A stretch of 37,413 nt of DNA, from assembly GCA_022705845.1 (NCBI GenBank), contig JAKJDQ010000003.1:1-37413 (forward strand), read 5' to 3'. Origin of the DNA: Patescibacteria group bacterium. GTDB lineage: Bacteria > Patescibacteriota > Patescibacteriia > Patescibacteriales > Patescibacteriaceae. Under the pieces are notes generated by a model. The model had not been told where the DNA came from. It did no database searches and saw only the letters and a list, made by a program, of their open reading frames with translations. Made by a program: the position numbers and the translations under genes. Below are positions 15,191-37,176 of the stretch, one piece after another (position 1 is the stretch's first letter; each line of letters starts with the position of its first letter).

Positions 15191-15910
15191 TTAACTTAAT
15201 TTAGAAGATTTTTTAAACCAATAAAGCTGCTGAAAAATACTAAAAATACTAGATAGCAGCCAATACATTGCTAAACCGCTCGGCAACGTCCAACAAATTA
15301 CTACCGTCATCAGGGGCATCATAAACATCATTTGCTTATTCATCATTACCGCGAAATTCTCAGTTTGACTTTTACTGCCTTTCGTCGGCATAGTATAACG
15401 GGCCGAAATCTTAGTCTGTAAAAACTGAGTTAATCCAGTCACGACTGCTAAAATTTTACTTGATTTAGCCAAATCTATTATACCAAAAAATGTAGTTTTT
15501 AACAATTCTGGTCTACTAATAAATGGATAGACTAATGATAGCGACTGATTAGAAAGACCGTCACGAAAAACCATAAACACCGCCCATAATAGCGGCAACT
15601 GAATTAAAAGAGGCAAACAAGAAGAAGCTGGATTGATTTTTTCTTGACGATAAAGATTCATTAAGGCTTGACCTTGTTTTTCCTTGTCGTCCTTATATTT
15701 ATCTTGAATCTCTTTAATTTTTGGCTGCAGACGATTGATGGCTTGCTGTGATTTTAACGACTTCTGAGAAAGAGGCCACAAAATTAACTTAACCAGGATT
15801 GTTAGAGCAATAATAACTATCCCCATGTCATGCCCCGGCAAAATATTATAAAACCAGACTAAAAGATTAAGTACTGGCTGATAAAAAAGAATAGTAAATA
15901 AATGTTTCAT
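15191..15910 (-). CDS. yidC: Membrane protein insertase YidC/Oxa1
   Basis: 239 residues, the short form without the large periplasmic domain. The Oxa1 core is clear: IALTILVKLILWPLSQKS, the cytoplasmic hairpin (INRLQPKIKEIQDKYKDDKEK…LMNLYRQEKINPASSCLPLLIQLP), and C-terminal segments with TLPSGLAMYWLLSSIFSIFQQ. The conserved positive residue of the hydrophilic groove in the first core helix is Lys (TILVKLI) where Arg is usual. No lipobox is seen. YidC inserts and folds membrane proteins with or without SecYEG. The rpmH-rnpA-yidD-yidC order is classical. Confidence 0.94.
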   Translation of the reverse strand: MKHLFTILFYQPVLNLLVWFYNILPGHDMGIVIIALTILVKLILWPLSQKSLKSQQAINRLQPKIKEIQDKYKDDKEKQGQALMNLYRQEKINPASSCLPLLIQLPLLWAVFMVFRDGLSNQSLSLVYPFISRPELLKTTFFGIIDLAKSSKILAVVTGLTQFLQTKISARYTMPTKGSKSQTENFAVMMNKQMMFMMPLMTVVICWTLPSGLAMYWLLSSIFSIFQQLYWFKKSSKLS

Positions 15911-15917
15911 AAAAAAA

Positions 15918-16181
15918 TTAACTGACCGGATCCCAACCGCCAGTTGTCCATGGATGACAACGTAAAAGACGATTAACGGTCATCAAAATTCCTTTAACTA
16001 AGCCATGTTTCTTTAAAGCAATTTTAGCATATTCCGAACAAGTTGGTCGAAAACGACAGCAACCATAAGGAAAATAGTTTCTAAACCAGCCATGATCTGG
16101 CGACAAAGTTTTTTGATAGCCCGAAATAATGGCAATTATTACCCTAATTATGACTTGCTCTAAAGATTTAATAAGTATCAT
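15918..16181 (-). CDS. yidD: YidD-like membrane protein insertion factor
   Basis: 87 residues from the ATG at 16181. This ATG overlaps the rnpA stop as ATGA, a typical coupling arrangement; an in-frame ATG at 16205 would make a longer overlap and is less likely. The family pattern is complete: [32 protein letters not shown] and [16 protein letters not shown]. The conserved cysteines are in [12 protein letters not shown] and LLRCHPW. YidD is a small membrane-associated protein that assists YidC-dependent insertion. Confidence 0.92.
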
Positions 16182-16522
16182 ACTATTAATTTTAGTTTTT
16201 TCCAAGCCTTAATCAGCTCTTGTTGTAAATCATCAAATTTTAAAAGAGAATATGGAGCAATAACCACAATAACTATGTCATAACCTTTAACCATCTTACA
16301 CAAATTCTCTTTCACTATGCTTGCCAAACGACGTTTAATTAAGTTACGTTCCGTAGCCAAACGGCAATAACGACGGCTTACTATAAAACCAAACCGGTTA
16401 TAGTTCAAACCATTAGTCACCACCCTAACACCTATCAATTTACCATAATATTTAGTCTCGGCTGCCTTAAAAAGACGGTTAAAGTCTTTTTTTTTGGTTA
16501 AATGATATTGTTTTTTAAGCAT
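16178..16522 (-). CDS. rnpA: Ribonuclease P protein component
   Basis: 114 residues, basic. [14 protein letters not shown] near the start, [23 protein letters not shown] (the RNR motif and its preceding strand) and [23 protein letters not shown] match RnpA. With the catalytic RNA it trims the 5' leader of pre-tRNAs. The stop is TGA, evidence that UGA is not recoded here. It begins 17 bases after rpmH and overlaps yidD by four bases. Confidence 0.93.
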
Positions 16523-16539
16523 AAAAAACTAACCAAAAA

Positions 16540-16677
16540 TTATTTGGTTAATTTTTGACGCCCCTTATTGCGACGACGGGACAACACATTGCGACCGCTC
16601 TTGGCCATCATTCTTTTTAAAAAACCGTGTTTCTTTTTAGCCCGCAAATTATTAGGCTGATAGGTTCGCTTCGGCAT
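16540..16677 (-). CDS. rpmH: 50S ribosomal protein L34
   Basis: 45 residues, too short for most gene finders but unmistakable: [20 protein letters not shown] followed by [20 protein letters not shown]. It is the first gene of the operon, 48 bases after its -10 element, and lies next to the origin as in many bacteria. Confidence 0.95.
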
Positions 16678-16724
16678 ATTATCAAAAATTAAAAAACTAC
16701 TCTTAGTAATATAGTCTAAAAAAG

Positions 16725-16753
16725 AGCATATCAGCTTATTAGGCCTTGGTCAA
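16725..16753 (-). promoter_or_regulatory. rpmH operon promoter
   Basis: Minus-strand TTGACC (16748-16753) and TATGCT (16725-16730) with a 17-bp spacer. The first DnaA box starts 18 bp away, so DnaA binding could affect it. Confidence 0.65.
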
Positions 16754-16770
16754 TACTTACAGAGATTTTA

Positions 16771-16802
16771 TTATCCACATTTTATCAACAAAGTTATCAA
16801 CT
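16771..16802 (+). other. DnaA-box cluster upstream of dnaA (first half of oriC)
   Basis: Three boxes in the same direction: TTATCCACA at 16771-16779 (perfect), TTATCAACA at 16782-16790 and TTATCAACT at 16794-16802. Regular spacing suggests cooperative DnaA binding, either for origin assembly or for dnaA autoregulation. Confidence 0.8.
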
Positions 16803-16812
16803 TTTCAGTGGG

Positions 16813-16840
16813 TTGCTGAAAAAAATAGGCCTGTTATAAT
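16813..16840 (+). promoter_or_regulatory. dnaA promoter
   Basis: TTGCTG (16813-16818), 16-bp spacer, TATAAT (16835-16840) preceded by TGT (extended -10). It starts 11 bp after the last DnaA box, consistent with autoregulation by DnaA. Confidence 0.7.
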
Positions 16841-16867
16841 AAAATCAAAACTTCTAATCCCCCACCT

Positions 16868-18259
16868 ATGGACCACCCACCCTTAGAACAAATTTGGCAA
16901 GCCATTCTTAGTGAAGCTGAGTTAAACATGTCCAAAGCTAATTTCACTACTTGGTTTAAAAATTCCTTTATCTTTGATTATCAAAATGATATTTTAACTA
17001 TTGGTGTTCCTAATGCCTTTACTCAGGCTTGGTTTGAAAATAAATTTTCTAAAGATATTACTCAAATTTTCTGTAAAGTCACTGGCAACAAACTAAAAGA
17101 GATAAAATATGTTATCAAAACCAAACCTAAAGAAACTCAAAATGCCTATAATTTTCTTGCTCCCGACCCTAATGAACAAAAAAAAGATAAGATTAATAAA
17201 ATTAAACCAACAAAAGATGAGTCGTTATGTCTTGCGGCTGGCCTTAATGCCAAATATACCTTTGAAACCTTTATTGTGGGCAAGCACAATGAGTTAGCTC
17301 ATGCTGCTTGTTGGGCCGCTATTCGCCAGCCAGGAGAAACATATAATCCCCTTTTTATCTATGGAGGAGTTGGGTTAGGTAAAACTCACCTCCTTCAAGC
17401 TATCGGGCATGAAATGCTTCGGTCTAACAAAAAAGTTCTTTATGTTACTTCAGAAAAATTCACCAATGATTATGTTGATGCAGTTTATCATGGTCAAGGT
17501 AATACTTTTAAGAGTGTCTACAGAAATGTGGACTTATTGCTAGTTGATGACATTCAATTTATGGCTGGTAAAGACGGTACTCAGCAAGAATTTTTTTATA
17601 CTTTTGATCAACTCCACCGAGCCAATAAACAAATAGTCATTACCTCTGATCGCTCGCCAAGAAACATGAAAGCCGTAGAGGCTCGTCTTATTACCCGTTT
17701 TGAGTGGGGTATGGTTGCCGATATCGGACAACCAGACCTAGAAACTAGAATAGCAATTTTAAATTCCAAATGCCAACAAAAAAACTTCCCCTTAGACCCA
17801 TCAGTTATTCAATATATTGCTACAAATATAAATAATAATATCCGCGAATTGGAGGGGGCTTTGAATAGAATTATTGGATTTTGCCAATTTCATAATTGTC
17901 AACCGGACTTATCTATTACTAAACAAATATTAAAAGACTTTTTTATTGCAATTCAAGCCAATAATTTATCTACTCCTCAAAAAATATTAGAAGCTGTGGC
18001 TAATTTTTATAATCTCAATTTATCTGAGATTACAGGTAGTAGTCGTAAAAAAGAATTAGTAATTCCTAGACAGATAGCTATGTATTTATTAAGAACTAAA
18101 ATAAATGCCTCTTTCCCGGCTATTGGTCAAGAATTAGGTGGACGAGATCATACCACTGCTATGCATGCTTGTACAAAAATTGAGCAAGAAATACGAAACG
18201 GTTCTAAAATTAGACAAGACATAGAGCAAATAGCTCAGTCAATCACCTCTGTGTATTAA
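16868..18259 (+). CDS. dnaA: Chromosomal replication initiator DnaA
   Basis: 463 residues, four domains. Domain I (1-85; IWQAILSEAELNMSKANFTTWFKN) mediates self-interaction; a lysine-rich linker follows. The AAA+ domain has Walker A GGVGLGKTH at 166-174 and Walker B LLLVDDIQF with Asp 227-228. The C-terminal helix-turn-helix carries the DnaA signature IGQELGGRDHTTAMHACTKI. DnaA-ATP binds the boxes on both sides of the gene and opens the origin. ATG at 16868 has no Shine-Dalgarno; the family-typical N-terminus supports it. Confidence 0.97.
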   Translation: MDHPPLEQIWQAILSEAELNMSKANFTTWFKNSFIFDYQNDILTIGVPNAFTQAWFENKFSKDITQIFCKVTGNKLKEIKYVIKTKPKETQNAYNFLAPDPNEQKKDKINKIKPTKDESLCLAAGLNAKYTFETFIVGKHNELAHAACWAAIRQPGETYNPLFIYGGVGLGKTHLLQAIGHEMLRSNKKVLYVTSEKFTNDYVDAVYHGQGNTFKSVYRNVDLLLVDDIQFMAGKDGTQQEFFYTFDQLHRANKQIVITSDRSPRNMKAVEARLITRFEWGMVADIGQPDLETRIAILNSKCQQKNFPLDPSVIQYIATNINNNIRELEGALNRIIGFCQFHNCQPDLSITKQILKDFFIAIQANNLSTPQKILEAVANFYNLNLSEITGSSRKKELVIPRQIAMYLLRTKINASFPAIGQELGGRDHTTAMHACTKIEQEIRNGSKIRQDIEQIAQSITSVY

Positions 18260-18462
18260 TTGTAAATAAAATGTTTATAACCCCTATTTATCCACAGACT
18301 TTTTAAAATTAATTAATTTTTACACTTTTTATTAACAATAACCCTCAATTTCATCCACAATTACAATAATAATATTTTTAGCTAATATTACTTAGAAAAA
18401 ATAGTTATCAACCTTTACCCAGTTATTATTATTAATAATAATTTATATATAATTAAAATATT
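18260..18462 (+). other. oriC: DnaA boxes and AT-rich unwinding element between dnaA and dnaN
   Basis: Boxes: TTATCCACA at 18288-18296 (perfect), TTATTAACA at 18329-18337 and TCATCCACA at 18351-18359 (near matches), TTATCAACC at 18405-18413. The last box is followed after nine bases by four TTA triplets (18423-18434), the complement of the 3'-AAT-5' DnaA-trio, and then almost pure A/T up to dnaN. This is the order box, short GC-bearing spacer, trios, unwinding element known from Bacillus. Confidence 0.8.
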
Positions 18463-19599
18463 ATGCAATTAACAATTCTCCAAAAAAATTTACATCAGGG
18501 GTTAAATACTATTAGCCATATTGCTGAGAAAAATCTCAGTATTCCTATTTTAAATAATATTTTAATAAAAGCTAAAAATAATATTATTACTTTAGCAGCT
18601 ACTAATCTAGAGATAGGTATAACTAAACAAATTAGAGGTAAAATTATAAAAGAAGGAACAACTACCGTAGATGCTAAAATTTTTAGTGATTATATTGCTC
18701 TTTTACCTAATGAAAAAATTGATATCCAATTAGTAAATAAACAAGATTTAAAAATTAATTGTGAAAAATATAACACTGTCATTAAGGGACAAAACTCTGA
18801 AGATTTTCCAGTAATTCCTCAAATTGATAAAAAAATTAGTCTTACTTTATCAGTCTCCGACCTAAAAATAGCTCTTAACCAACTTCTATTTGCTATTAAT
18901 CCGACCGATAGCCGCTTAGAATTAACTGGTATTCTATTTGATATTAATGATAAAAATATAAACTTAGTATCTACCGATAGCTTTCGTCTAGCTAAAAAGG
19001 AAATTAATTTCTGTTTATGTTCCGGCACTATGGATTCAAATGGTCTAAAAATTATTGTGCCTCTAAAGACCATGCAGGAATTGGCACGAATTATTAATTT
19101 TCCTAATGATGAGCTAACCGAAGATAGTGATCAAATTCAAATACACATTGCTGATAATCAAATTTTATTTGTTTATCAAGGTGTAGAAATGGTGTCTCGT
19201 TTAATTGAAGGACATTATCCTGATTATATTCAAGTTATTCCTACTAACTTTAAAACCGAAATTATTATTGACCGAGGAGAATTTTTAAGAGCTATAAAAA
19301 TGGCTTCAATTTTTAGTGCTAATTCTAACGCCGTTGATTTAACTATTAATACCGATCAGCAACAAATAATAGTTGAGGCTGTATCAGGCCAAATTGGCAG
19401 TCATCAGGCTAAATTAGCCGCCAAAATAAACGGCCAAGATAACTCCATCCGTTTAAATTATCGTTATTTATTAGATTGTCTTAATGTTTTATCAGCTAAT
19501 CAAATATCGTTTAAGATAATTGACGATGTCAGTGCTTGTAAAATAACCTTGCCTGGCAGTGAAGAGTATCAATATATTGTGGTTCCGCTCCGTAAATAG
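18463..19599 (+). CDS. dnaN: DNA polymerase III beta subunit (sliding clamp)
   Basis: 378 residues with the three clamp domains: N-terminal LTILQKNLHQGLNTISHIAEKN…IPILNNILI, central ELTGILFDI…STDSFRLA, and C-terminal …RYLLDCLNVLSANQISFKIID ending in YIVVPLRK (usual clamp ending is near VMPMR). The dimeric ring tethers polymerase to DNA. It follows the unwinding region without a clear separate promoter or Shine-Dalgarno. The stop codon abuts that of the convergent holA with no spacer. Confidence 0.95.
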   Translation: MQLTILQKNLHQGLNTISHIAEKNLSIPILNNILIKAKNNIITLAATNLEIGITKQIRGKIIKEGTTTVDAKIFSDYIALLPNEKIDIQLVNKQDLKINCEKYNTVIKGQNSEDFPVIPQIDKKISLTLSVSDLKIALNQLLFAINPTDSRLELTGILFDINDKNINLVSTDSFRLAKKEINFCLCSGTMDSNGLKIIVPLKTMQELARIINFPNDELTEDSDQIQIHIADNQILFVYQGVEMVSRLIEGHYPDYIQVIPTNFKTEIIIDRGEFLRAIKMASIFSANSNAVDLTINTDQQQIIVEAVSGQIGSHQAKLAAKINGQDNSIRLNYRYLLDCLNVLSANQISFKIIDDVSACKITLPGSEEYQYIVVPLRK

Positions 19600-36364: not shown

Positions 36365-36428
36365 TAAATATTTTGTCCAGATTTTTATGGACTTTTCCAC
36401 TAAATATTTTGTCCAGATTTTTATGGAC
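36365..36428. repeat. Two 28-bp direct repeats, each a hairpin
   Basis: Identical copies at 36365-36392 and 36401-36428, eight bases apart. Each holds the inverted repeat GTCCA…TGGAC with an eight-base centre; in the second copy the arms extend to TTTTGTCCA / TGGACAAAA. Neither is followed by a T-run typical of a terminator. Confidence 0.85.
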
Positions 36429-36454
36429 AAAAATAAAAGAATTAATTTGAGGGT

Positions 36455-36725: not shown

Positions 36726-36942
36726 AAAAAGGAAGCCACTGCGGGCCCTTCATTTACATAAAATGTAAAAAATTGAAATGGCCCCGACGGCCTCCTCCTT
36801 GAAATTTTTATAAAAATTTCAAGAGCAAAATTCTTAAACCGGCTTCAAGGAACTTTTGATCTCCTTTATGGTGATCTTGGCCCTTTTATTTTTATTTTTT
36901 ATTTTTTTTGGAGAAGCCAGAGTAAGAAGTAAAAAGAACTAT
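36726..36942 (-). ncRNA. Candidate free-standing structured small RNA (about 215 nt)
   Basis: The stretch has no credible reading frame but its own promoter (36949-36977) and a terminator-like end. From 5' to 3' on the minus strand: a C/T-rich start, CTGGCTTCTCC (36920-36910), a long A-rich run, a GATC…GATC segment, a perfect 26-base palindrome (36798-36823), GGAGGAGGCC (36798-36789), GGGCC…GGCCC enclosing a 7-bp hairpin (TTTACAT / ATGTAAA), and GTGGCTTCC followed by TTTTTGTTTTT. The final arms pair over 8 bp. It lacks the conserved motifs of tmRNA, RNase P RNA, 4.5S RNA and T-box leaders; 6S RNA is not excluded. Confidence 0.55.
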
Positions 36943-36948
36943 AGAGGT

Positions 36949-36977
36949 AGTATAGCACAAAATAAAAAAGTGGTCAA
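36949..36977 (-). promoter_or_regulatory. Promoter of the candidate small RNA
   Basis: Minus-strand TTGACC (36972-36977), 17-bp spacer ending TGC, TATACT (36949-36954). Start expected near 36942. The -35 lies in the right arm of a terminator hairpin. Confidence 0.65.
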
Positions 36978-36990: not shown

Positions 36991-37100
36991 ATTCCTCTAG
37001 ACTTAATGTTTTATTGAATAAAATGGCTTTTTATTTTTAAATCAGAGATTACTATTTTAGTCTATAATTTTCTAGACTTAATAAAAATAAAAATAATTTT
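36991..37100. other. Non-coding AT-rich stretch between tRNA-Cys and its terminator
   Basis: No reading frame or RNA fold of note. CTCTAGACTTAAT-like sequence occurs twice (about 37007 and 37072), and a 6-bp hairpin (37059-37078) lacks a T-run. Confidence 0.4.
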
Positions 37101-37176
37101 TGGAGGTCACGGTGGGAGTCGAACCCACGAATAACAGTTTTGCAAACTGTTGCCTTAGCCTCTTGGCGACGTGACC
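37101..37176 (-). tRNA. tRNA-Cys (anticodon GCA)
   Basis: Acceptor GGTCACG / CGTGACC, anticodon arm ACAGT-TTGCAAA-ACTGT, T-arm GTGGG-TTCGACT-CCCAC and U73, the cysteine discriminator. Unlike the other two tRNAs, the genome encodes CCA after U73 (37103-37101). Confidence 0.94.

Follow-up and report, generated by a model that had tools for sequence, protein, structure and literature searches.

The window, by which we mean the whole 37,413 nt stretch of Patescibacteria DNA analysed here, likely encodes an RNA belonging to a new family of functional, stand-alone RNAs, a judgement which applies to the RNA and not to its binding partner. Sequence analysis indicates that the RNA is real and places it on the minus strand (36942→36726, 217 nt). 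Its assignment to the family is secure, since it is matched by two covariance models (R2 and R3, described below) and shares the synteny and promoter of its relatives. Compared with these, it is a reduced variant and not a typical member. It retains P2 with the enclosed A-rich tract, H2, P4 and the P5 terminator, and has the features seen at the level of the order, a tRNA-Cys upstream on the same strand and an extended −10 of its own, but both kissing hairpins (H1 and H3) and the 5' hairpin are missing. The features of the locus are as follows.

37101–37176 (−): tRNA-Cys(GCA), the upstream neighbour, outside the RNA; conserved synteny
36949–36977 (−): putative promoter, TTGACC, 17 nt spacer and TG-extended TATACT; 20+ relatives have the same extended −10 (TGnTATAnT) in the corresponding position
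36726–36942 (−): predicted non-coding RNA gene, 217 nt, reduced family member; from the fold, the sister-species comparison and matches to R2 and R3
36913–36929 (−): P2, 5' strand CTTCTTACTCTGGCTTC; from the fold, and the family P2 covaries
36884–36909 (−): A-rich unpaired tract within P2, AAAAAAAATAAAAAATAAAAATAAAA; family consensus AAAACAAAAACAAAA
36849–36883 (−): inner hairpin H2, GGGCCAAGATCACC...GGAGATCAAAAGTTCC; compensatory change in the sister species
36831–36846 (−): P2, 3' strand GAAGCCGGTTTAAGAA; from the fold, and the family P2 covaries
36798–36823 (−): P4, a perfect 26 nt palindrome, equivalent to the CCCTGAG..CTTAGGG helix of relatives
36789–36798 (−): P5, 5' strand GGAGGAGGCC; from the fold and family covariation
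36743–36785 (−): inner part of P5, GGGGCCATTTCA...TGAAGGGCCC; from the fold
36726–36739 (−): P5, 3' strand GTGGCTTCC and U-run, forming the predicted intrinsic terminator; from the fold, a terminator scan and covariation

The RNA gene of the window

The promoter-like site (TTGACC-17-TATACT with a TG extension, 36977→36949) scores 10/12. The predicted start of the RNA is near 36942, and the U-run of the terminator-like site at its 3' end is near 36726. Read from 5' to 3' on the minus strand, the promoter and start are followed by CTGGCTTCTCC (36920→36910), the A-rich run, the middle segment (36798→36789), the 3' segment (36739→36731) and the U-run. A preliminary description had singled out these three segments together with a 26 nt palindrome (36798–36823) and an A-rich run (36909→36884); all are present, on the minus strand. 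It had also proposed that the transcript has its own promoter and end signal, which the TG-extended TTGACC-17-TATACT site and the terminator-like 3' end bear out as predictions, and that it is a new stand-alone structured RNA, which is likewise supported, no Rfam family being matched. The fold energy is −66.5 kcal/mol, compared with −45.4 ± 4.2 kcal/mol for shuffled sequences (z = −5.0; 0/200).

The copy in a sister species of the same genus (G001) differs at seven of the 217 positions (3.2%). In the same two species the flanking spacers have diverged by 17.5 and 10.8%, and the neighbouring tRNAs by 1.4–2.7%, so the RNA is conserved in the manner of a functional RNA. Indels between the two copies are confined to the A-run, the 5' leader and one loop. 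In H2, GATC/GATC is replaced by GGTC/GACC in the sister species, a compensatory change from A-U to G-C which, with the overall conservation, argues for selection on the window member. The longest plus-strand candidate for a coding sequence, a small hydrophobic frame across the A-run (ATG, about 46 aa), was rejected on account of frame-shifting indels in the sister species, and no conserved open reading frame was found in the RNA.

Distribution and novelty of the family

A DNA similarity search (BLAST) returned only the same-genus sister copy, the other matches being A-rich or palindrome noise. A covariance model built from the window and sister sequences (R1) gave a divergent match (E = 1.8e-5) in G010, a genome of the same taxonomic family; here too the matching stretch follows tRNA-Cys on the same strand. 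The remaining, weak R1 matches (L054, L055, L057, L061 and L065) look like chance. The draft genome G010 carries two copies of the RNA (C27:4822-4950 and C54:2569-2691) and two tRNA-Cys genes, as either a duplication or a mixed bin would give. The tRNA-Cys neighbourhoods of relatives were gathered and inspected for the RNA. In 20+ genomes of the order, which are deposited under Ca. Falkowbacteria or Patescibacteria group, a conserved RNA of mostly 280–380 nt follows the tRNA on the same strand. Its predicted start is 146–558 nt from tRNA-Cys, and nearly all members of the order have their own promoter with a strong extended −10.

A degenerate pattern from the 3' part of the RNA was scanned over 85,000 species genomes and returned 40 stretches, a few of them cut off at a contig end. 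About 26 are in Patescibacteria-type genomes, with Ca. Falkowbacteria, Parcubacteria group and Patescibacteria group as the specific labels (NCBI taxonomy places Falkowbacteria within the Patescibacteria group), and tRNA-Cys precedes the RNA in those with enough upstream sequence. About a dozen matches, in unrelated bacteria and without promoter, A-tract or tRNA-Cys, were discarded.

Model R2 describes P4–P5 and was built from 21 sequences, none from the taxonomic family of the window. In the window's genome it has a single match, at 36726–36842 (E = 3e-4 genome-wide); R3, a model of the other half of the family structure, matches the window RNA at 36804–36928 with 29.5 bits. R2 matched 83 of the 111 genomes of the order, and 56 of the 71 good ones. 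R2 had no match in several genomes from the taxonomic family to which the window belongs, which could reflect assembly gaps, divergence or loss. Beyond the order the absence of a match is uninformative, the models having been trained on this one order: an even draw of 381 class genomes gave 31 matches, three of them outside the order, and 9 of 380 genomes drawn from the phylum matched under strict filters. Two of the three out-of-order class matches (L194 and L197) show a kissing loop, CCGAC/GUCGG. Eight of the phylum matches look genuine; L203, from the same search, looks like a false match in a protein-coding region. In f150, a family of another class, the RNA was found in 9 of 14 genomes, eight members having loop pairs of the UCUAAC/GUUAGA or UCUAGU/ACUAGA type. 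No tRNA-Cys was found beside the RNA among the out-of-order matches.

Searches of Rfam 15 with the window and 29 family loci, at gathering and lax thresholds, gave only tRNAs and chance-level matches, so that the comparison with known RNA families (6S and others) called for at the outset yielded no match. No description of such a Patescibacteria RNA was found in the open-access literature, subscription papers being largely outside that scope. With no Rfam family and no open-access description, we regard the family as previously uncatalogued. OLE, raiA, ROOL and GOLLD, large structured RNAs of bacteria whose functions are known in part or not at all, stand alone, are hundreds of nucleotides long and combine conserved helices, long-range loop–loop contacts and lineage-wide conservation. 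The new family resembles them in each of these respects but differs in its lack of an Rfam match in the searches made, its taxa, its tRNA-Cys synteny and the placement of the terminator within the last stem.

Conserved structure and covariation

The elements of the family are, in order, a variable 5' hairpin, P2 (which encloses H1, the A-tract and H2), H3, P4 and P5. P2 (consensus YUUUCUACU...GGUAGAAAR) is a long helix closing a junction, inside which the A-tract AAAACAAAAACAAAA is unpaired between H1 and H2. Ten of the eleven invariant columns of the A4 alignment are the A's of this tract. The H2 consensus is GGUAG...CUACC. P4 (CCCUGAG...CUUAGGG) encloses GAUUUUCUUG and GAAAU, and the stem of P5 (GGGGCUCAG...CUGGGCCCC and a U-run) doubles as the terminator.

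The loop hexamer of H1 is complementary to that of H3, which gives a kissing-loop pseudoknot. The pairs include UCUAAC/GUUAGA, GUUCAC/GUGAAC, GUCAAC/GUUGAC, GUUGAU/AUCAAC, AUCGAC/GUCGAU, GCUGAC/GUCAGC, AUCGGC/GCCGAU, GCUAGC/GCUAGC, UUCGAC/GUCGAA and CUCGAC/GUCGAG, among others. With the kissing-pair columns fixed by sequence alignment alone, at least five of the six pairs form in 27 of the 29 sequences, compared with a mean of 13.3 and a maximum of 21 in 20,000 trials with swapped partners. The pseudoknot is typical of the family, not universal, and is absent from the window RNA. Both H1 and H3 are lacking in the window, G001, L070 and L087, and both are also lacking in L089, from another family of the order, the rest of whose RNA is intact; joint loss is what a true contact between H1 and H3 would predict. 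A variant architecture was noted in L088, L092, L128, L134 and L139 (family f8), in which H1 and the A-tract are separated by a large insert; these variants keep the kissing pair GCUGAC/GUCAGC.

The comparative alignment, also proposed earlier as a check, shows covariation of the family helices in both halves of the structure. In the P2–H3 half 89.0% of cells are paired and 25 of 29 pairs have double changes, with a covariation score of 0.524 compared with 0.224 ± 0.015 for shuffles, and 0 of 500 shuffles reach any of the measures. The shuffle control leaves relatedness in play; the slid control keeps relatedness and still falls far short, with 26–43% of cells paired. In the P4–P5 half 96.3% of cells are paired and 15 of 26 pairs show double changes. 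The four central pairs of P2 are near-invariant (21 of 22 sequences).

Alternative explanations and possible function

The preliminary description had the middle segment pairing with either the 5' or the 3' segment, so that two folds would compete. On this basis the RNA might be a cis riboswitch or attenuator controlling read-through into tRNA-Arg/Ala; the three segments do exist, and the energies of their isolated duplexes are similar (−14.9, −14.5 and −13.4 kcal/mol). However, forcing the 5'–middle pairing gives −50.5 instead of −66.5 kcal/mol, a cost of 16 kcal/mol, and its pairing probability is about 2e-10. It is also pre-empted co-transcriptionally, since GAAGCCGG captures the 5' segment in folds of the growing chain before the middle has been transcribed. 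In the family as a whole, the partner of the 5' strand is GGTAGAAA (P2) and that of the middle is the 3' end (P5, where 99.5% of cells are paired in 21 sequences), and the two helices coexist and covary. Energy, co-transcriptional order and comparative pairing thus led us to reject the two-fold switch. The RNA had further been said to stand alone before the tRNA genes. It does stand alone, but its conserved neighbour is the tRNA-Cys on its 5' side and not the Arg/Ala tRNAs, which have their own promoter-like site (TTGACG-17-TACAAT) and in most relatives adjoin a different gene, divergently read and bactofilin-like (recognised by eye, not by search), without this RNA. The flanks as read have tRNA-Arg downstream here and yidC-like, TraR/DksA-like or YchF-like genes elsewhere, and this variation argues against a conserved cis target. 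No riboswitch or T-box aptamer match was obtained at the window RNA (T-box 15.2 bits, cut-off 93). Altogether, cis control of this kind seems very unlikely.

Within the order the RNA adjoins tRNA-Cys on the same strand, as it would if it were a 3' extension of the tRNA-Cys transcript, or a by-product of its processing, with no function of its own. The separate promoter, the start 146 nt or more from the tRNA, the lack of an adjacent tRNA-Cys in the out-of-order matches and the extensive covariation make this reading extremely improbable. A divergent form of one of the known housekeeping RNAs, chiefly a 6S RNA sequestering RNA polymerase, would account for a stand-alone RNA of about 200–380 nt that is likely abundant, the window member being similar in size to 6S RNA, and no match to RF00013 (6S RNA) was found in the window's genome. 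That model also fails to match the RNA itself, the 29 family loci have no Rfam match beyond tRNA and chance, and the single long hairpin with a central promoter-like bubble of 6S RNA was not seen in the predicted folds of the window RNA or its relatives, the family being a multi-helix junction with kissing loops; we consider this identity quite unlikely. Two further stand-alone structured RNAs with pseudoknots, RNase P RNA (RF00010, contig 31) and a true tmRNA (RF00023, contig 39), are elsewhere in the same genome. The window RNA gave no RF00010 match and, by ARAGORN, no tRNA-like domain; it also differs from tmRNA in having no tag frame. Loss of the kissing hairpins and the 5' hairpin might instead mark the RNA of the window lineage as a decaying relic, inactive within an active family. 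This is unlikely given its low divergence relative to the flanking spacers, the compensatory change, the intact promoter and terminator, indels limited to the leader, A-run and one loop, and the same double loss in at least one distant genome (L089). The window member may nevertheless work differently or be decaying, having lost the most conserved tertiary contact.

In our view, a structural or regulatory RNA of a ribonucleoprotein is to be preferred over a cis regulator, and the RNA probably acts in trans within such a particle, either as a constitutive component or as a regulator. Judged by its sequence, it is an independent transcription unit. In the arrangement seen from the family sequences P2 closes a junction holding H1, the single-stranded A-rich tract and H2; H3 follows P2 and pairs through its loop with that of H1, and P4 and then P5, also the intrinsic terminator, complete the RNA. 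The kissing contact probably makes the junction rigid, because it could be lost whole from a lineage that kept the rest, and the window lineage has lost H1 and H3 together. The conserved helices would hold the A-rich tract exposed or docked in a minor groove, where a protein, or a component of the ribosome or RNA polymerase, could bind it. The near-invariance of the A-tract and the central P2 pairs suggests either docking of the tract in the minor groove of P2 or its recognition by a protein; that it is the protein-binding site is possible, though by no means assured. The conservation of the RNA suggests a central role in the cell.

The Patescibacteria form a very large group, for the most part uncultured, whose tiny genomes have lost many pathways. 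That a complex RNA persists in 75% of the draft genomes of one order, and can be traced to other classes of the phylum, points strongly to an unrecognised basic function. We tentatively propose, as a plausible reading, a phylum-wide non-coding RNA of essential type, a new structured class with a kissing-loop core and an A-rich strand for protein binding or docking, serving a global function that other bacteria perform differently or lack, with the window lineage as its natural minimal version. The natural loss of the pseudoknot in the window lineage makes it easy to test which elements are needed, and annotation of the family is straightforward with the covariance models and the kissing-loop rule.

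We also note a replication-origin gene cluster at 15191–19599 of the window, with yidC (−), rnpA (−), dnaA (+) and dnaN (+) and two perfect DnaA boxes (16771 and 18288). A yidC-like gene (recognised by reading) lies directly beside the RNA in several relatives, and the RNA gene may therefore be origin-proximal and of high dosage. Palindromes of the type TTAAGTCCACAnnnnTGTGGACTTAA with the DnaA-box-like TGTGGATAA fill the spacer between tRNA-Cys and the RNA in many genomes (L070, L074, L075, L083, L093 and others), and related copies are present in the window near 36370–36430 and 37050–37085.
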